45,633 nucleotides of DNA from Thiobacillus sp. 65-1402. Lineage in GTDB: Bacteria; Pseudomonadota; Gammaproteobacteria; Burkholderiales; Thiobacillaceae. This document shows positions 36,768 through 45,633 of the stretch, in pieces. The stretch lies in assembly GCF_001897685.1 (NCBI RefSeq), contig NZ_MKUG01000192.1, positions 1-45,633 on the forward strand, read 5' to 3'. The translations under genes were made by a program, and so were the position numbers. Position 1 is the first letter of the stretch. Each line of letters begins with the position of its first letter. The notes beneath the pieces are model-generated. The model saw only the letters and a list, made by a program, of their open reading frames with translations. It ran no database searches and had not been told where the DNA came from.

Positions 36768-37244
36768 ATGCAACTCACCCGCTTTACCGATTTTTCCCTG
36801 AGGGTGCTGATTTACCTGGGCGGACATCCCGATGCGCTGGTCACGGTAGCGGCGATCGCCAGCGAATATGGCATTTCCCGCCATCACCTCACGCGCGTGG
36901 TGCACCAGCTGGGCATCAAGGGCTACATCGAAACGGTGCGCGGCAAGGGGGGCGGCTTCCGCCTGGCGCGCCGCCCCGACCAGATCCGGATTGGCGATGT
37001 CGTGCGCGACATGGAAAGCGGGTTCGAGCTGGCCGAGTGTTTCCGGCCGGGCGACAATACATGCCGCCTGTTGCCCGGCTGTGCGCTCAAACCCGTTCTG
37101 CTCGATGCGGGGCGTGCCTTTCTGGCAAGTCTTGACGGCTACACCCTGGCGGATTTGTTGCCTGCCTTTGCCCTGCCCGCCAGGGCCGCCTCCCCGAAAC
37201 TAGGAAAAACGCCCGCCGTGGCGGGAAAAGCGCCGCACGGCTGA
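36768..37244 (+). CDS. nsrR: Rrf2-family regulator, NsrR-like (nitric oxide sensing)
   Basis: 158 aa. Begins MQLTRFTDFSLRVLIYLGGH, the NsrR-type N-terminus. The helix-turn-helix is ITVAAIASEYGISRHHLTR-like (about 25-50) with the wing RGKGGGFRLAR. Three Cys at about 91, 99 and 105 (ECF...TCRLLPGC) fit the Fe-S ligands of NsrR, though the first spacing is longer than in E. coli. NsrR senses nitric oxide by its cluster. Its 3' end overlaps the convergent membrane protein gene by 45 bp. Confidence 0.87.
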   Translation: MQLTRFTDFSLRVLIYLGGHPDALVTVAAIASEYGISRHHLTRVVHQLGIKGYIETVRGKGGGFRLARRPDQIRIGDVVRDMESGFELAECFRPGDNTCRLLPGCALKPVLLDAGRAFLASLDGYTLADLLPAFALPARAASPKLGKTPAVAGKAPHG

Positions 37245-38489
37245 CAGCAGGTTGAGTTCCAGCAGCAGCGCCGAGAGCGCCAGTGTGGTTCCCGCCGGGA
37301 CGGCCAGCAGCGCTGGCCAGAACGTGGCGGCGACGAGCAGCATGCAGGTGCCGAGGTGGAGACGGAATTGCCAGCGCCTTGCGCGTTCCGCAATCATGTC
37401 CTTCATGGTGGGGATGCTGCCCGCGCGCGCCTGCAACTGGGCTTGCAGGTGAAACCAGGCGAGGAAGGGCACGATCTTGTAGAGCATGCCGCAGACCACG
37501 CTCACGGCGAAGCCACCGATGAACAGCACGCCGAGCAGCAGCGGATAGGCATCGCTGCCCGCCCACGCCGGCCAGAGCCGAGCCAGCAGCCAGACGGCGA
37601 CGCAGGCGATGAGGCTGGCCATGCCGACGCGCCAGAAATCCAGGGTGACGTCGGGCAGCTTTCTGCGGCGCCGCGACTGCAGGCGCAAGGTGACCAGCGC
37701 GAAGGCCAGCCCCCCGGCGGCGAGCCCGCTTTCGGCGAACAAGGCGATCCCCGCTGCCGCGGGCAGCAGCGGAGCCATGGTACGGAGCAGCAGCAATCCG
37801 AGCATGACGCCGGCCAGCCAGCGCATGAGCCGGGGAGGGTAAGGCGGCGTGATCTGGAACATCGGCACGACTTGGTAGGCGACGCCGATCACCAGCAGCA
37901 ATACCCAGCCGAACAGACCGAAGACGACATGCGCGGCGATGAAGATTTCGTCTTTGACCGGGGTCCACCAGCCGGCACGCATGGTCGCGAGCGCAATGCC
38001 GAGGATGAGGGTCAGGCCGAGGCTGATCGCGGCGAGCCGCATGCCCGTCACCGTGGCGCTGGCAACCGCGCGCCGCAGGCCGATCGCCGTTGCGGCGAGA
38101 AAAACCGCAAAGCCGCAGCCCAGCAGGATCATTGCTGCGGCGAGCGCGTGCGCGCCTGCGCCGAGGAAGCCCGCCATCAGGGCCGCGGTTCCGGCAGCAA
38201 GCAGGAAATGGGTGGACCTGGCCACGCCGCGGGACGCGGGCAATGCCGCGCCTGCCACCACCGGCAGCATCTGCAGCAGCGCACCCAGCATCGTCATGGC
38301 GAGGAAGCCCAGCGTCAGCGCGTGAGTGAGCGCGAGCGCGGGCGGCGTCCAGCGCGAGGCCAGCGCAGCGGGAGCCAGCACGATCAGGCCCGCGGCGGCC
38401 AGCAGGTACAGCGGTGCGGTGAGAAAGAACCGCAGCGGCAGCGCGAACGGCGGCGCCTGTTCGAAGGAAAGTCCGGTCTGCATGCTCAT
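37200..38489 (-). CDS. Polytopic membrane protein, NnrS / heme-copper oxidase subunit I-like (II)
   Basis: 429 aa with about 12 hydrophobic helices. His residues in helices include ALTHALTLGFLAMTMLGALLQMLP and AAHVVFGLFGWVLLLVIGVAYQVVPMF, a pattern like NnrS and heme-copper oxidase-I-like proteins. It shares the HALTLGF / HLNTLGF design with the protein at 35261 but is longer. Third gene of a hemerythrin-DUF2249-membrane protein operon (17 bp after the DUF2249 gene). A role in nitric oxide or oxygen handling is inferred from context. Confidence 0.7.
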   Translation of the reverse strand: MSMQTGLSFEQAPPFALPLRFFLTAPLYLLAAAGLIVLAPAALASRWTPPALALTHALTLGFLAMTMLGALLQMLPVVAGAALPASRGVARSTHFLLAAGTAALMAGFLGAGAHALAAAMILLGCGFAVFLAATAIGLRRAVASATVTGMRLAAISLGLTLILGIALATMRAGWWTPVKDEIFIAAHVVFGLFGWVLLLVIGVAYQVVPMFQITPPYPPRLMRWLAGVMLGLLLLRTMAPLLPAAAGIALFAESGLAAGGLAFALVTLRLQSRRRRKLPDVTLDFWRVGMASLIACVAVWLLARLWPAWAGSDAYPLLLGVLFIGGFAVSVVCGMLYKIVPFLAWFHLQAQLQARAGSIPTMKDMIAERARRWQFRLHLGTCMLLVAATFWPALLAVPAGTTLALSALLLELNLLSAVRRFSRHGGRFS

Positions 38490-38506
38490 GGCTGGGCGGG
38501 CATCAC

Positions 38507-38770
38507 CTATGCTGCGGGCGGGTTTCGCGGCGCGGCGCCTGGCGCCTGGCGGATCAGCACCACATAGCTTCCATCCGCCTGCGGCACGGTGTCGTGACGG
38601 TAGCCGCGGCTGTCCAGGATGGAATAGAGCGGAAACGGTTCGCGATGCAGCAGCAGCCGGATGTGCTGGCCGGGCTGCAGCAGGGCCAGCGCGCGCAACG
38701 CCTGCTCCATCGGCTCCGGCGGTTCCAGCCAGCGGGCGTCGATGAGGATTTCGTCAGCCGGTGCGACCAT
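38507..38770 (-). CDS. DUF2249-domain protein (II)
   Basis: 87 aa. ILIDARWLEPPEPMEQALRAL and LQPGQHIRLLLHREPFPLYSIL match DUF2249 with the HREPFPL loop in place of NDHDPLPL of the first copy. The end is Pro/Ala-rich. It lies 15 bp after the hemerythrin gene. Together with the copy at 36414 it gives two DUF2249 proteins in two parallel operons. Confidence 0.83.
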   Translation of the reverse strand: MVAPADEILIDARWLEPPEPMEQALRALALLQPGQHIRLLLHREPFPLYSILDSRGYRHDTVPQADGSYVVLIRQAPGAAPRNPPAA

Positions 38771-38785
38771 CGACGCTGCGTGCGG

Positions 38786-39226
38786 TCACTTCGCAACCGC
38801 ATCCATGCTGCGGATCAGCGCTTCGCAATCGGCCGCAAGCACCTGATCGGACATCGGGTAGAGCATGTTTTCCTCCTTCAGGTTGTGTTGCTGCATCAGC
38901 ATGTTGAGCGTTTCCGACAGGCCGAGATAGCCGCTGTGGTCGGCCGCCAGCGCCGCGCGCGCCATGTCCTGCAGCAGGGCGCGCATCTGCTCGTGCTCCA
39001 TGCGCATGACGTGGGTCGGCCCCATCGTGTTGCCGGTACGGGCTTCGAACGCGGGGAACAGCACCTCTTCCTCCATCCGCAGATGGTGCGCCATCGCCGC
39101 CTGAAAGCGGTCGGACAGGCTGCGCGCGCTGTCCCAGTCCTTCTGCGCCACGGCGGCTTCGGCGGATGCAAACAAATCGTCGCAGGCGCGGTGGTCGCCG
39201 CCCAGATACTCCAGAATCATACCCAT
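38786..39226 (-). CDS. Hemerythrin-like (HHE) domain protein
   Basis: 146 aa four-helix protein. Iron ligands are seen in GDHRACDDLF, HHLRMEEEVLFP (H-x3-E), HVMRMEHEQM and QQHNLKEENMLYP (H-x3-E). Bacterial hemerythrins bind oxygen or nitric oxide or help repair Fe-S centres (as in RIC/YtfE). ATG at 39226 with GGAGG 8 nt upstream. First gene of the operon with DUF2249 (II) and membrane protein (II). Confidence 0.9.
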   Translation of the reverse strand: MGMILEYLGGDHRACDDLFASAEAAVAQKDWDSARSLSDRFQAAMAHHLRMEEEVLFPAFEARTGNTMGPTHVMRMEHEQMRALLQDMARAALAADHSGYLGLSETLNMLMQQHNLKEENMLYPMSDQVLAADCEALIRSMDAVAK

Positions 39227-39250
39227 GCTGTGCCTCCATAAGTTGATGAA

Positions 39251-39368: not shown

Positions 39369-41384
39369 ATGAATTCAGTGATAGCAGTTCTGCCCCGCGA
39401 AGTCATCAAGCGCGACGGGCGTCAGGCAATATTCGATGCCGCGAAGATACGTTCGGCCATTCTGCGTGCCGGGCAGGCCAGCGGCGAATTCGGCGAAGCC
39501 GAAGCCGACTTGCTCACCGCCCAGGTGGTGAAGGTGCTGATTCACAAATTCCGCAACGCCCCGCCGAGCATCGAGCGCATCCAGGATGTGGTCGAGCAGA
39601 GCCTGATCGCCGCCAACCACCTGGCTACCGCGCGTGCCTACATCGTCTATCGCGAAACGCACAAGAAGCTGCGCGAGGACCGCAAGACGCTGGTCGACGT
39701 CGAAGCCTCGATCAACGAATACCTGTCGCGCCAGGACTGGCGGGTCAACGCCAACGCCAACCAGGGCTACAGCCTCGGCGGCCTGATCCTCAACGTCTCC
39801 GGCAAGGTGGTGGCCAACTACTGGCTCAACCACGTCTACCCGCCCGAGCTCGGCGAGGCGCACCGCGACGGCTCGATCCACGTCCACGACCTCGACATGC
39901 TGGCCGGCTACTGCGCCGGCTGGTCGCTGCGCACCTTGCTGCACGAAGGCCTGAACGGCGTGCCGGGCAAGGTCGAGGCGGGGCCGCCGAAGCACATGTC
40001 CTCCGCGGTCGGCCAGATCGTCAACTTCCTCGGCACACTGCAGAACGAATGGGCCGGCGCGCAGGCGTTCAGCTCGTTCGACACCTACATGGCGCCGTTC
40101 ATCCGCAACGACGGCATGAGCTACGAAGCGGTCAGGCAGTGCATCCAGGAGCTGATCTACAACCTCAACGTGCCGTCGCGCTGGGGCACCCAGACGCCGT
40201 TCACCAACCTGACCTTCGACTGGACCTGTCCCGAAGACCTGCGCGACCAGGTGCCGATGATCGGCGGCAAGGAAATGCCCTTCACCTACGGCGAGCTGCA
40301 GGTCGAGATGGACATGATCAACCGCGCCTACATCGAGGTGATGACCACCGGCGACGCCAAGGGCCGGGTGTTCACCTTCCCCATCCCGACCTACAACATG
40401 ACGCCGGATTTCCCCTGGGAATCGGAAAATGCCGAACGCCTGTTCGCCATGACCGCGCGCTACGGCCTGCCGTACTTCCAGAACTTCATCAATTCCGAGA
40501 TGAAGCCGAACCATATCCGCTCGATGTGCTGCCGCCTGCAGCTCGACCTGCGCGAACTCCTGAAGCGCGGCAACGGCCTGTTCGGTTCGGCCGAGCAGAC
40601 CGGCTCGGTCGGCGTGGTGACGGTCAACTGCGCGCGCCTCGGCTACGAGTACAAGGGCGACGAAGCGGGCTTGCTGCGCCGCCTCGACGCGCTGCTCGAC
40701 ATGGCGAGGAACGGCCTGGAAATCAAGCGCAAGGAAATCCAGCGCCTGATGGACAACGGTCTGTTCCCCTACACCAAGCGCTACCTCGGCACCCTGCGCA
40801 ACCACTTCTCGACCGTCGGCGTCAACGGCGTCAACGAGATGATCCGCAACTTCACGGATGACCAGCACGACATCACCACCGCATGGGGTCATGACTTCGC
40901 GGTGCGGCTGCTCGACCACATCCGTGGACGCATCGCCGCGTTCCAGGAGGAGACCGGCCACATGTACAACCTGGAAGCCACGCCGGCCGAGGGCACCACC
41001 TACCGTTTCGCCAAGGAGGATGCCAAGCGCTACCCGGGCATCCTGCAGGCGGGCAGCGGCGAGGCGCCGTACTACACCAACTCGACGCAGCTGCCGGTGG
41101 GCTTCACCGACGACGCCTTCGAGGCGCTGGAACGGCAGGACGACCTGCAGCGCAAATACACCGGCGGCACCGTGCTGCATCTCTACATGTCGGAGCGCAT
41201 CTCCTCCGTCGACGCTTGCCGCAACCTGGTGCGCCGCGCGCTGACGCGCTTCCGTCTGCCCTACATCACCGTCACGCCGACTTTTTCCATCTGTCCCAAA
41301 CACGGCTACCTCGCCGGCGAGCACGAATTCTGTCCCACGTGCGACGAAGAGGCCCTGTCCCGCAAACGCGCTGTTTCAGCCTGA
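39369..41384 (+). CDS. nrdD: Anaerobic ribonucleoside-triphosphate reductase NrdD, core lacking the glycyl-radical loop
   Basis: 671 aa class III reductase. An N-terminal ATP-cone (about 10-100: VIKRDGRQAIFDAAKIRSAI) is followed by the ten-stranded barrel (GYSLGGLILNVSGKVVANYW; HMSSAVGQIVNFLGTLQNEW; NVPSRWGTQTPFTNLTFDW). Catalytic Cys candidates are Cys387/Cys388 (SMCCRLQLD). The C-terminal zinc site is Cys642, His645, Cys655 and Cys658. The protein ends 13 residues later. The RVxGY glycyl-radical segment, expected about 16 residues after the last zinc Cys (E. coli Gly681), is absent here and encoded by the next cistron. ATG at 39369 has AAGGAG upstream. Confidence 0.92.
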   Translation: MNSVIAVLPREVIKRDGRQAIFDAAKIRSAILRAGQASGEFGEAEADLLTAQVVKVLIHKFRNAPPSIERIQDVVEQSLIAANHLATARAYIVYRETHKKLREDRKTLVDVEASINEYLSRQDWRVNANANQGYSLGGLILNVSGKVVANYWLNHVYPPELGEAHRDGSIHVHDLDMLAGYCAGWSLRTLLHEGLNGVPGKVEAGPPKHMSSAVGQIVNFLGTLQNEWAGAQAFSSFDTYMAPFIRNDGMSYEAVRQCIQELIYNLNVPSRWGTQTPFTNLTFDWTCPEDLRDQVPMIGGKEMPFTYGELQVEMDMINRAYIEVMTTGDAKGRVFTFPIPTYNMTPDFPWESENAERLFAMTARYGLPYFQNFINSEMKPNHIRSMCCRLQLDLRELLKRGNGLFGSAEQTGSVGVVTVNCARLGYEYKGDEAGLLRRLDALLDMARNGLEIKRKEIQRLMDNGLFPYTKRYLGTLRNHFSTVGVNGVNEMIRNFTDDQHDITTAWGHDFAVRLLDHIRGRIAAFQEETGHMYNLEATPAEGTTYRFAKEDAKRYPGILQAGSGEAPYYTNSTQLPVGFTDDAFEALERQDDLQRKYTGGTVLHLYMSERISSVDACRNLVRRALTRFRLPYITVTPTFSICPKHGYLAGEHEFCPTCDEEALSRKRAVSA

Positions 41385-41400
41385 TCCCTAGGAGACCGAT

Positions 41401-41586
41401 ATGAACGACATGAGTGTTTCGAGCCAAATCCAGACCGTTGCCCTGAAGGACGAGGAGCGCACCCGCTGCGAAGTGTGGACCCGCGTGATGGGCTACCACC
41501 GCCCGGTGACGAGCTTCAACAAGGGCAAGCAGAGCGAGCATCGCGAGCGCCAGTTCTTTGTCGAAGGCCGCTGCACGCTCGGATAA
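41401..41586 (+). CDS. Separate glycyl-radical domain of class III ribonucleotide reductase
   Basis: 61 aa. Residues 20-50 read RTRCEVWTRVMGYHRP then VTSFNKGKQSEHRERQ, which is the C-terminal glycyl-radical tail of NrdD (RVxGY with the radical Gly at 31, then the N-x-GK-x2-E-x3-R pattern). It starts 16 bp after the nrdD stop, in a different reading frame, with its own ribosome site AGGAG 6 nt before the ATG. It is therefore an independent cistron, not a simple extension. NrdG would generate the radical on Gly31, which would then serve the NrdD core in trans, like the spare part YfiD/GrcA of pyruvate formate-lyase. That mechanism is inferred. Confidence 0.88.
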   Translation: MNDMSVSSQIQTVALKDEERTRCEVWTRVMGYHRPVTSFNKGKQSEHRERQFFVEGRCTLG

Positions 41587-41613: not shown

Positions 41614-42309
41614 ATGACGCTGCGCGTGGGCGGCCTGACGCCGCTGTCCACCACCGACTGGCCCGGTCTGCTGGCCGCGGTGGTGTTCTGCCAGGGCTGT
41701 CCCTGGCGCTGCGGCTATTGCCATAACCCCGATCTGATTCCGCCGCGCGGCGCCGACGAAATCCCCTGGGAAGAGGTGCTGGCTTTCCTGCGCCGCCGCC
41801 AGGGATTGCTCGACGGCGTGGTGTTTTCCGGCGGCGAGCCGACGCTGCAGGCAGCGTTGCCGGATGCGATGCGCGCGGCGCGCGGACTTGGCTTCAAGAT
41901 CGGCCTGCACACCGGCGGCATGTACCCCGGGCGGCTGGCGGCGGTGCTGCCGCTGGTCGACTGGGTGGGGCTCGACGTGAAAGCGCCGTTTGCCGATTAC
42001 GCCGGCATCACCGGCGTGGCGGAAAGCGGAACGCGCGCCCGCGAGAGCCTGGAGCAGGTGCTGGCTTCCGGCGTGGCGCACGAAATCCGCACCACCGTGC
42101 ATCCGGCGCTGCTGGCCGATGCGGAGGTGGTCGGCCTGGCGCACGACCTGGCCGCGCGCGGCGTCCGGCGCTACGTCATCCAGGCCTTTCGCAGCCAGGG
42201 CTGCCGGAATGACGAGCTGTGCCGGAATCCGGCGCGCGAGCGCCCCCTAGAGGAGGTGGGCGGGGAACTGGCCGGGCTGTTCGAGAAATTTTCGGTGCGC
42301 GTGGCGTAG
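41614..42309 (+). CDS. nrdG: Anaerobic ribonucleotide reductase-activating protein NrdG (radical SAM)
   Basis: 231 aa. The cluster motif CPWRCGYC (Cys-x3-Cys-x2-Cys) lies at about residues 29-36, preceded by STTDWPGLLAAVVFCQGC and followed by HNPDLIPP. GVVFSGGEPTLQAAL matches the GGE motif. NrdG uses S-adenosylmethionine to make the glycyl radical of NrdD. It is longer than E. coli NrdG (about 154 aa) and resembles the NrdG2/PFL-activase-like form. It starts 27 bp after the small glycyl-radical gene. Confidence 0.92.
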   Translation: MTLRVGGLTPLSTTDWPGLLAAVVFCQGCPWRCGYCHNPDLIPPRGADEIPWEEVLAFLRRRQGLLDGVVFSGGEPTLQAALPDAMRAARGLGFKIGLHTGGMYPGRLAAVLPLVDWVGLDVKAPFADYAGITGVAESGTRARESLEQVLASGVAHEIRTTVHPALLADAEVVGLAHDLAARGVRRYVIQAFRSQGCRNDELCRNPARERPLEEVGGELAGLFEKFSVRVA

Positions 42310-43542: not shown

Positions 43543-44292
43543 TCAGGCGACGCGTCCCGCGCGCAAAAACAGCGGCCATCGCAGCGTTCGGGCCGCTTCC
43601 GGAGTGCCCCACAGGGGCGCCAGTTCGGCCCGCAGCGGCGGCAGCGGGTCGTGCCCTCGCGCGGCCCGGTAGCGCCTCACCGCCGACCAGGTGGAGAGGT
43701 AATCCAGCAGCCGCGGCAGCGTCCACGCGACCTCGATGGCAAAAGCCGGCGCCTCGATTTCCATGAAGGGAAAATCCAGGCTGCGGTAGGCGTCGTCGAT
43801 CAGCGCGCGTTCGGCCGGCCAGTAGGGGCCGACGGTTTCGCCGTAGAAGCGCAGGAATGGCGCGTCCATTTCCCCCGGCAGCACCATCCGCCCGTAACCC
43901 CACAATGCGACCATGCCGTCCGGCTTCAGCACGCGCGCTGCTTCGGCGTAAAAAGCCGGCAGGTCGAACCAGTGCGCCGCCTGCGCGACGGTGACGAGGT
44001 CGATGCTGTGGTCGGCGAGGCCGCTGGCTTCGGCGGGCGCCACCCGGTACGTGATGGCGGGATGCGGCGCGGCATGACGGATCTGTTCGGCCGAGGCGTC
44101 GGTGGCGACGACCCGGCGGAAATGCGCCGCCAGCCCCAGCGCCGCCTGGCCGCTGCCGGTGGCGCAATCCCAGGCGAGGTCATGCCCAGAGCACTGGCCG
44201 GCAAGCCAGGCGAACAGCGCGGCGGGGTAGTCCGGGCGATAGGCGGCGTAGCGATCGGACCCCGACGAGAAGTGATCCTTGAATGAACTCAC
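43543..44292 (-). CDS. Class I SAM-dependent methyltransferase
   Basis: 249 aa. The SAM-binding motif I is DCATGSGQAALGLA at about residue 42. VVATDASAEQIRHA follows, then DLVTVAQAAHWFDLPAFYAEAARVLKPDG, typical of UbiE/TAM-like small-molecule methyltransferases. The substrate is unknown. GTG start at 44292 overlaps the ribD stop by 4 bp, so it is co-transcribed with ribD and takes the place where ribE is usually found. Confidence 0.85.
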   Translation of the reverse strand: MSSFKDHFSSGSDRYAAYRPDYPAALFAWLAGQCSGHDLAWDCATGSGQAALGLAAHFRRVVATDASAEQIRHAAPHPAITYRVAPAEASGLADHSIDLVTVAQAAHWFDLPAFYAEAARVLKPDGMVALWGYGRMVLPGEMDAPFLRFYGETVGPYWPAERALIDDAYRSLDFPFMEIEAPAFAIEVAWTLPRLLDYLSTWSAVRRYRAARGHDPLPPLRAELAPLWGTPEAARTLRWPLFLRAGRVA

Positions 44293-45380
44293 GCGGGCAG
44301 CAGCGTCAGGCGCAGGTCGCCGCCGACCTGGCGCACGTCGGCCAAGGTGAAGCGTGCGGCGTCGCCCAGTGCCGCCAGCGGCGCGTGGGCGAACAGTCCG
44401 CGCGCATCGTCGCCCACTGCCAGCGGCGCCAGATAGGCCACCCATTCGTCGACCAGCCCGGCCTTGAGCAGGGCGCCGTTGAGCGCGGCGCCGGCTTCGA
44501 CGTGCAGTTCGTTGACGCCGCGCTGCGCCAGCAGTGCGAGCAGGGCGGCGAGGTCGACGCGGCCATCCGTCCCCGGCAATGCGACCACCTCGGCGCCCGC
44601 CTGTTCGAGCAGCGAACGCATGCCGGGCTCGGCGTGGTGGCAGGCGACGAGCGCGGGCAGGATTGCCGCGTCGGCCGGCGTGCGCAAGGCGGAATCGACG
44701 ACGACCCTGAGCGGCTGCCGGCCGATGTCGAAATCGCGCACATTCATGCGCGGATTGTCGGCCAGCACGGTGCCGCTGCCGGTGAGGATGGCGCAGGCAC
44801 GCGCGCGCAGCGCCTGCACGTCGGCGCGCGCGGCCGTGCCGGTGATCCACTGCGAGGCGCCGTTGGCGAGCGCGGTCTTGCCGTCGAGCGTCGCGGCGGT
44901 CTTGAGGCGCACCCATGGGCGTTGCCGCGTCATGCGCGAAACGAAGCCGGGGTTGAGCGCGCGCGCGCCGGCCTCCATCAGCCCTACTTCGGCCGGGATG
45001 CCCGCCAGCGTCAGCATGGCGATGCCGCCGCCCGCGACCAGCGGATTGGGATCGTTCATCGCCGCCACCACGCGCGCCACGCCGGCCTGGATCAGCGCCT
45101 CGGCGCACGGCGGGGTGCGGCCGTGGTGCGAGCAGGGCTCCAGCGTGACGTACACCGTCGCGCCGCGTGCGGCGTCACCGGCGGCCTGCAGCGCGTGGAT
45201 TTCGGCGTGCGGGGTGCCGGCGCGTTCGTGCCAGCCTTCGCCGACGACGCGGCCGTCCCTGACGATGATGCAGCCGACGCGCGGATTGGGGCTGGTGGTG
45301 TTGAGGCCGCGCGCCGCGAGTTGCAGCGCGCGCGCCATGTGGGCATGGTCGGCGGCGCTGAAGCGGTCGGCGCTGGGCAT
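44289..45380 (-). CDS. ribD: Bifunctional diaminohydroxyphosphoribosylaminopyrimidine deaminase / 5-amino-6-(5-phosphoribosylamino)uracil reductase
   Basis: 363 aa. The deaminase half has the zinc motifs HAEIHAL and PCSHHGRTPPC. The reductase half (about 150-363) shows RPWVRLKTAATLDGKTA, GSGTVLADNP and the C-terminal HVEAGAALNGALLKAGLVDEW. RibD performs steps 2 and 3 of riboflavin synthesis. It lies next to nrdR, as in many proteobacteria, but is separated from ribE by about 19 kb. ATG at 45380 immediately follows the nrdR stop codon region. Confidence 0.96.
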   Translation of the reverse strand: MPSADRFSAADHAHMARALQLAARGLNTTSPNPRVGCIIVRDGRVVGEGWHERAGTPHAEIHALQAAGDAARGATVYVTLEPCSHHGRTPPCAEALIQAGVARVVAAMNDPNPLVAGGGIAMLTLAGIPAEVGLMEAGARALNPGFVSRMTRQRPWVRLKTAATLDGKTALANGASQWITGTAARADVQALRARACAILTGSGTVLADNPRMNVRDFDIGRQPLRVVVDSALRTPADAAILPALVACHHAEPGMRSLLEQAGAEVVALPGTDGRVDLAALLALLAQRGVNELHVEAGAALNGALLKAGLVDEWVAYLAPLAVGDDARGLFAHAPLAALGDAARFTLADVRQVGGDLRLTLLPA

Positions 45381-45633
45381 TTACTGGTCGATGTCGCGGA
45401 TGACGTCGCGGAAGTCCTCGACGTCCTGGAAACTGCGGTACACCGAGGCGAAGCGGATGTAGGCGACCTTGTCGAGCTTCTTCAGTTCGTTCATCACCAG
45501 CTCGCCGACTGCGCGCGCGGGGATTTCGCGCTCGCCCAGCGTCAGCAGGCGCTGGCGGATGCGGTCGACCGCGGCGTCGACCAGCTCGGTGGAAACCGGA
45601 CGCTTGTGCAGCGCCCGGCGAAAGCCTTCACGC
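45381..45633 (-). CDS. nrdR: Transcriptional repressor NrdR (3' part)
   Basis: The visible 83 codons encode the ATP-cone part of Nrd[62 protein letters not shown]. The N-terminal zinc ribbon lies outside the window. NrdR represses all classes of ribonucleotide reductase genes by binding tandem NrdR boxes when loaded with dATP/ATP. Candidate boxes are in front of nrdD in this window (39307-39354). It directly precedes ribD. Confidence 0.95.

Follow-up and report, generated by a model that had tools for sequence, protein, structure and literature searches.

Organization of the nrdD locus

The window analysed here is a stretch of 45,633 nucleotides (nt) from Thiobacillus sp. 65-1402 (contig NZ_MKUG01000192.1). 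It holds an operon for a class III ribonucleotide reductase (RNR), NrdD, in which the catalytic core and the glycyl-radical loop lie in two separate genes, followed by nrdG (Table 1). A reading made from the sequence alone had proposed this split, and its coordinates and lengths (671 and 61 amino acids, aa) hold. The core open reading frame (ORF) runs from the ATG at 39369 to the TGA at 41382-41384. Its frame is also open from an ATG at 39225; the start at 39369 was preferred for the AAGGAG upstream of it and for the start of the profile match.

The core matches NF006126 over positions 3-657 of 684 with 1138.8 bits (cut-off 548), and PF13597 over positions 2-530 of 562 (core residues 129-661). 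Models of class I and class II reductases match it only in the region of the ATP-cone, about residues 10-117. What the core match lacks is the end of the class III models, and this is found in the small ORF, which matches PF13597 at 532-562 of 562 with 34 bits, above the cut-off of 26.2. The same ORF matches TIGR02487 at 549-579 of 581 with 29.5 bits, far below the whole-protein cut-off, as expected of a fragment. PF13597 is its sole Pfam family at E <= 1.

The core ends shortly after its predicted zinc site. The motif CPKH-x9-CPTC occupies residues 642-658, leaving 13 residues before the stop, as the sequence-only reading had it, and C642, H645, C655 and C658 are invariant in an alignment of 52 cores. 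The Cys387-Cys388 pair is presumably the site of the thiyl cysteine, by analogy with NrdD of T4 and E. coli. The radical loop and tail follow in another frame, as had also been claimed, with 16 nt between the core stop and the ATG at 41401. The small ORF consists of a variable N-terminal arm and then C23...RVMGYHRP...FNKGK. The ATG of nrdG lies 28 bases past the last base of its stop.

Gly31 of the small protein is invariant in 15 diverse rows, all picked as relatives having this loop. Larger glycine counts (133/133 and 65/65) were discarded as circular, since the search motif itself contains the glycine. In three fused relatives the distance from the zinc cysteine to the radical glycine falls within 12-19 residues (loci L198, L259 and L252), in keeping with the figure of about 16 given earlier.

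As for class, the core family match, the zinc motif and the NrdG partner all point to class III NrdD, and a radical glycine in the same chain is lacking. Because the glycine loop sits in a separate ORF, the enzyme is filed as a two-chain variant and not as an ordinary NrdD member.

Table 1. Features of the nrdD operon and of the end of the window.
Feature	Position	Strand	Basis or remark
nrdD core, 671 aa, TGA stop	39369..41384	+	ATP-cone, class III catalytic barrel and zinc site, without radical glycine
ATP-cone domain of core, residues 11-100	39399..39668	+	PF03477, 79.9 bits
Cys387-Cys388, candidate active-site thiyl cysteine	40527..40532	+	both invariant in the 52-row core alignment
Zinc motif C642-x2-H645-x9-C655-x2-C658, end of core	41292..41342	+	read from sequence
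AGGAG, likely ribosome site of small ORF	41390..41394	+	read from sequence
Small glycyl-radical ORF, 61 aa, proposed NrdD radical subunit	41401..41586	+	
Gly31, predicted radical glycine	41491..41493	+	alignment to class III NrdD C-termini
nrdG, radical S-adenosylmethionine (SAM) activase (NrdG2)	41614..42309	+	TIGR02495, 217.4 bits
ribD, after NrdR	44292-45380		
NrdR, C-terminal part, repressor of reductase genes	45384-45632	-	at window end

Distribution of the split operon

The loci fetched and classified come from 173 genomes of family, order, class and phylum samples. The reductase is split in 153 and fused in 10. The rest comprise five with a small gene and no core in the fetched stretch (one also at a contig end), three at contig ends only and two without a class; for one of these two (G959) a genome search places the small gene beside a core. 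Gene structure, conservation, selection and co-occurrence are matters of direct observation. The search for such operons, suggested by the sequence-only reading, was productive, and the close fused relatives that it set against its own claim did not appear: loci were fetched for 56 genomes of the same family, counting the window's own, and 54 of these are split and none fused, with contig ends cutting the other two.

Within this family the small protein has a match in 57 of 117 genomes, again counting the window's own, and PF13597 in 58. One of the 57 (G086) is weak, with a stop inside. Beyond the family the small-protein profile matched 83 of 300 order genomes and 33 of 369 class genomes, a minority of those sampled. 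The phylum sample, searched with the core, gave matches in 16 of 398.

Among named organisms (the best 80 of 559 relatives), a motif script called 76 loci split. Two more have a core directly upstream of the small gene, L108 with the core partly masked and L123 with a variant motif, and the last two, L101 and L142, are orphan small genes. The carriers include Thiobacillus thioparus, Ralstonia pickettii, Thauera linaloolentis, Pseudomonas carbonaria and Allochromatium palmeri. Plasmid-borne split operons occur in Cupriavidus necator H16 (pHG1), Sulfuricurvum kujiense and Shinella zoogloeoides, the latter two extending the split to Campylobacterota and Alphaproteobacteria. Fused relatives on plasmids were found in Acidiphilium, Actinomyces and Geoalkalibacter, and the locus L383 is also fused.

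A further family, that of genome G901, has PF13597 in 52 of 148 genomes. Ten of the 52 were read directly at the locus and all ten are split. Among the rows listed for this family, no single stop-free match spans core and small part. Three of its cores have 83-86% identity to two named Pseudomonas cores.

Some other associations were seen. At L236 and L238 (genomes G538 and G492) the small gene is paired with an nrdG-like gene, with the core elsewhere in the genome. A B12-binding radical SAM protein (DUF4070) adjoins the small gene at L262 (1276-3424), L108 (3500-5650) and L205; its identity is confirmed by Pfam for L262 only, and in L108 it separates the small gene from nrdG. Plasmid nrdD operons adjoin napA in Sulfuricurvum or catalase genes in Actinomyces and Shinella (L379, L380, L384). 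Finally, an assignment of five fused sequences to Neisseria was rejected, with 0 or 1 copies, over both strands of those five genomes, of what we take to be the uptake motif.

Evidence for a separate gene

The 175 split loci included repeated operons and were reduced to 154 different ones from 153 genomes. Counted from the core stop, 45 of these have the loop in frame 0, 51 in frame 1 and 58 in frame 2, at a distance of 31-460 nt (median 106). Among 78 named loci the frames are equally spread, at 25, 26 and 27. An in-frame ATG, the only start codon searched for, stands 17-34 codons ahead of the loop in 57 of 58 same-family loci. A tally of ATG in 57 of 57 was set aside as circular, since no other start codon was sought.

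The small ORF is held by purifying selection. For the 57 same-family ORFs from those 58 loci, the ratio of nonsynonymous to synonymous differences (pN/pS) comes to 0.25 for the 36 codons surrounding the loop and to 0.48 for the N-terminal arm. These are rough values, as the compared pairs are related and the set includes an orphan (L186).

In a tree of cores, built from 75 of 185 usable sequences, a fused clade is nested inside a split clade. This suggests, as the simplest reading, that split genes have been re-fused. Only this nested clade is used here, since 30 of the tree's 72 inner branches are open and its long branches come together close to the root. L375, coded 'nosmall' in the tree, has by genome search a small gene 64 nt from its core.

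Stand-alone and phage-borne copies

Small genes also occur without a core beside them. IMG/VR, whose contigs are predicted viruses, was scanned with the small-protein alignment, and the best 80 of 192 relatives were kept. No match to the window core is present in the fetched flanks of these 80 loci, which reach at most 5 kb a side and often less. All 50 FN-motif matches in viral loci have the glycine, a conservation that is largely built in because the patterns used for scanning include either the radical loop or the FNxGK tail; 48 of the 50 also hold the search motif TRVMGY, and only 2 are without it.

Phage genes are among the neighbours of these copies. The PHROGs scan covered 102 neighbour ORFs drawn from 60 distinct loci, and in the first 25 of 126 matched families there are portal proteins (in 5), several endolysin families, terminase, a Rz-like spanin, and tail and head proteins. 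Pfam places small genes beside lysozyme (L243, L293), GH19 (L253) and Mu portal genes (L329), near a capsid E gene (L273), by a tail protein (L186) and, on a plasmid of Allochromatium vinosum, beside a CHAP gene (L382). In three loci the small gene is inside or beside the phage lysis genes (L243, 1979-2992; L253, 2353-3502; L293, 4085-5551), lysozyme or GH19 being assigned by Pfam and the Rz-like ORFs by eye. Furthermore, four phage copies (L312, L313, L329 and L305) carry a cysteine-rich N-terminal arm ahead of the loop, which may form a metal site of its own.

Bacterial genomes can hold both forms. The genomes that carry L243, L253 and L186 are bacterial and have a split operon as well, and extra orphan copies accompany the operon in seven genomes (G088, G383, G559, G585, G650, G722, G733), some resembling metagenome-assembled genomes.

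The collection of phage isolates gave one record with the window small protein and three with a phage copy, none of them shown to be stand-alone. Two of these records are annotated as reductases and the third is unannotated. One phage family, phrog_4132, has no function in PHROGs. Positions 116-153 of its 179-long profile match the window small protein, and three phage copies match within 115-155. Positions around 115-155 correspond to the class III radical loop, with no explanation for the first 110. Of 185 class genomes, 13 have a match to this family, among them that of the window.

Genes around the operon

Upstream of nrdD (36768-39235) are an Rrf2-type regulator, a membrane protein without family matches that looks NnrS-like by eye, and a hemerythrin protein. 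The best NCBIfam equivalog of the regulator is NsrR, at 127 bits, below its cut-off of 182. A Crp-type regulator is also near the operon. This neighbourhood would fit nitrate or nitric-oxide respiration.

A probable two-chain reductase

Very probably, to judge from the genes and their comparison, this is a class III RNR of two polypeptides, and the small protein is its glycyl-radical subunit, acting in trans. It would be obligate in this clade, because the core has no radical glycine. The role in trans was already proposed by the sequence-only reading, and conservation, frame spread, selection, apparent re-fusion and the presence of nrdG all support it well.

Docking, activation by NrdG in trans and turnover are what we infer for the complete enzyme. 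The core would contribute the ATP-cone, the zinc site and the barrel that holds the active-site cysteines, and the 61-aa protein the radical glycine loop and the C-terminal tail. Alone, the core would be idle, having no radical. The small protein may then take the docking place of the radical domain, NrdG would install the radical on Gly31, and catalysis would proceed along the known class III route. A damaged small part might be swapped in the same arrangement. The first step of this scheme has the support of the comparative evidence; replacement and phage supply are put forward as hypotheses.

An enzyme of this kind very likely works in cells. According to a passage of PMC2864759, the nrdDG genes of eutrophus H16 are located on pHG1, and on that plasmid the operon is made of core, small gene and nrdG, in this order. 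A 76 kDa NrdD was reportedly described by Siedow et al. in 1999; it is not used as evidence here.

Several points weigh against the two-chain reading. The small gene is apart from the core in G538, G492 and G546, and in G631, where contigs are short, it was seen and a core was not found. The docking model shows a single fused relative instead of two chains, with fused rows in its alignment. For the split enzyme, binding, installation of the radical and activity are predicted from the genes. Lastly, the pHG1 genetics come through the citing paper, whose passage leaves unstated the part of the small gene in the original mutants or constructs.

Alternative explanations

The split may serve an exchange of parts, as the sequence-only reading also supposed in proposing a subunit renewable after cleavage by oxygen. 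Oxygen would cleave the small chain, a fresh one would dock on the intact core, and orphan or phage copies would add to the supply. The small protein would then resemble YfiD or T4 Y06I, but as an obligate part of a class III reductase. We consider the case for this evenly balanced. The seven genomes with extra orphan copies, the lack of core matches around the 80 viral loci and the lysis, portal and capsid neighbours favour it, and spare parts for other glycyl radical enzymes were thought possible in a passage of PMC8683613. On the other side, cleavage and exchange are themselves hypotheses, and only 7 of 173 genomes have orphans in addition to a split operon, some of them fragmented assemblies such as G088 (86% complete, 7% contamination). 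The phage isolates yielded no copy shown to be stand-alone, and most viral contigs have no assigned host. An exchangeable part gains plausibility from the orphan and phage-borne copies.

A broader proposal is that a large class III clade uses an exchangeable radical subunit, that many phages carry it alone and recharge the host core when infecting under low oxygen, and that phrog_4132 is this subunit. We offer this tentatively, with doubt slightly prevailing.

Alternatively, the phage copies may be inhibitors, turning off the reductase of the host by blocking NrdG or the place of docking. Nucleotide metabolism of the host is a frequent phage target, and the viral copies are short and have no core in the fetched flanks. 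A blocker could do without the glycine, though, and the glycine and loop are kept in the FN-motif matches, a weak argument given that 48 of the 50 hold the search motif. This alternative appears unlikely.

A programmed frameshift or stop read-through, giving one fused NrdD chain and an only apparent split, is very improbable and was rejected. The ORFs are indeed adjacent and in order, and 45 of the 154 operons have the small ORF in the core's frame. Still, the even use of three frames argues against a conserved event of this kind, as do the widely varying distances, the ATG ahead of the loop and the stand-alone copies with no core nearby. Sequencing error or gene decay, conceivable in a genome of 222 contigs with 9% contamination, has a negligible chance and is refuted by the same split in the 153 classified genomes, in named organisms and on pHG1, together with purifying selection.

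Relation to known systems

The two-chain enzyme shares with one-chain NrdD of the NF006126/PRK08270 type the core family, zinc motif, glycyl loop and NrdG partner. In one-chain enzymes such as that of T. maritima (4coi) the radical glycine is in the same chain, whereas in the window it is in a separate gene product.

Passages of PMC4520616 describe the class II reductase NrdJa/NrdJb of Pseudomonas aeruginosa, which is likewise encoded by two genes in one operon in Proteobacteria, both of them needed. That enzyme is B12-dependent, with NrdJb mediating thiol-disulfide exchange; the window core is of class III and is not a B12-dependent class II core.

Small free glycyl-radical proteins are also known. 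In passages of PMC8683613, only YfiD (GrcA) and T4 Y06I, the latter phage-carried, are validated as spare parts, both for pyruvate formate-lyase. YfiD repairs an enzyme that has its own glycine, whereas the window core has none. The small ORF is not a member of the pyruvate formate-lyase-type glycine-radical family, having PF13597 only in Pfam, so both enzyme and family differ from YfiD. As for phage nrdD genes in pieces, passages of PMC3653736 report introns, inteins and unexplained fragmentation, and contain no separately maintained radical subunit.

Open-licence full texts yielded no account of a bacterial class III reductase that is split so as to have its radical subunit apart, most subscription papers lying outside the search. 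On pHG1 the core is annotated as 'ribonucleoside triphosphate reductase' and the small gene as 'nrdD'. In a genome paper on Cupriavidus metallidurans the two genes named are Rmet_5137 and Rmet_5139, with a gap of one locus number. The arrangement is visible in plasmid records, yet unexplained as far as the open-licence literature shows.

Significance

The split reductase is real and widespread, a known enzyme in a two-piece form, and its phage side was unexpected. Annotation is affected, as the name nrdD on pHG1 is borne by the small gene alone. The two genes offer a natural two-chain system for studying the installation and transfer of a radical in trans. Spare parts for other glycyl radical enzymes, a question raised by the YfiD work in a passage of PMC8683613, become directly testable with them.

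To supply the small part, a phage would only have to carry a gene of roughly 150-270 bp. The family phrog_4132 gains a hypothesis of function and, if this is true, would be the first spare part for a glycyl radical enzyme besides pyruvate formate-lyase.

Oxygen destroys glycyl radicals and cuts the chain, as described for pyruvate formate-lyase in a passage of PMC8683613. A separate radical subunit of about 7 kDa, as estimated from its 61 aa, would limit such damage to a cheap part, and this may suit facultative denitrifiers that often meet air.
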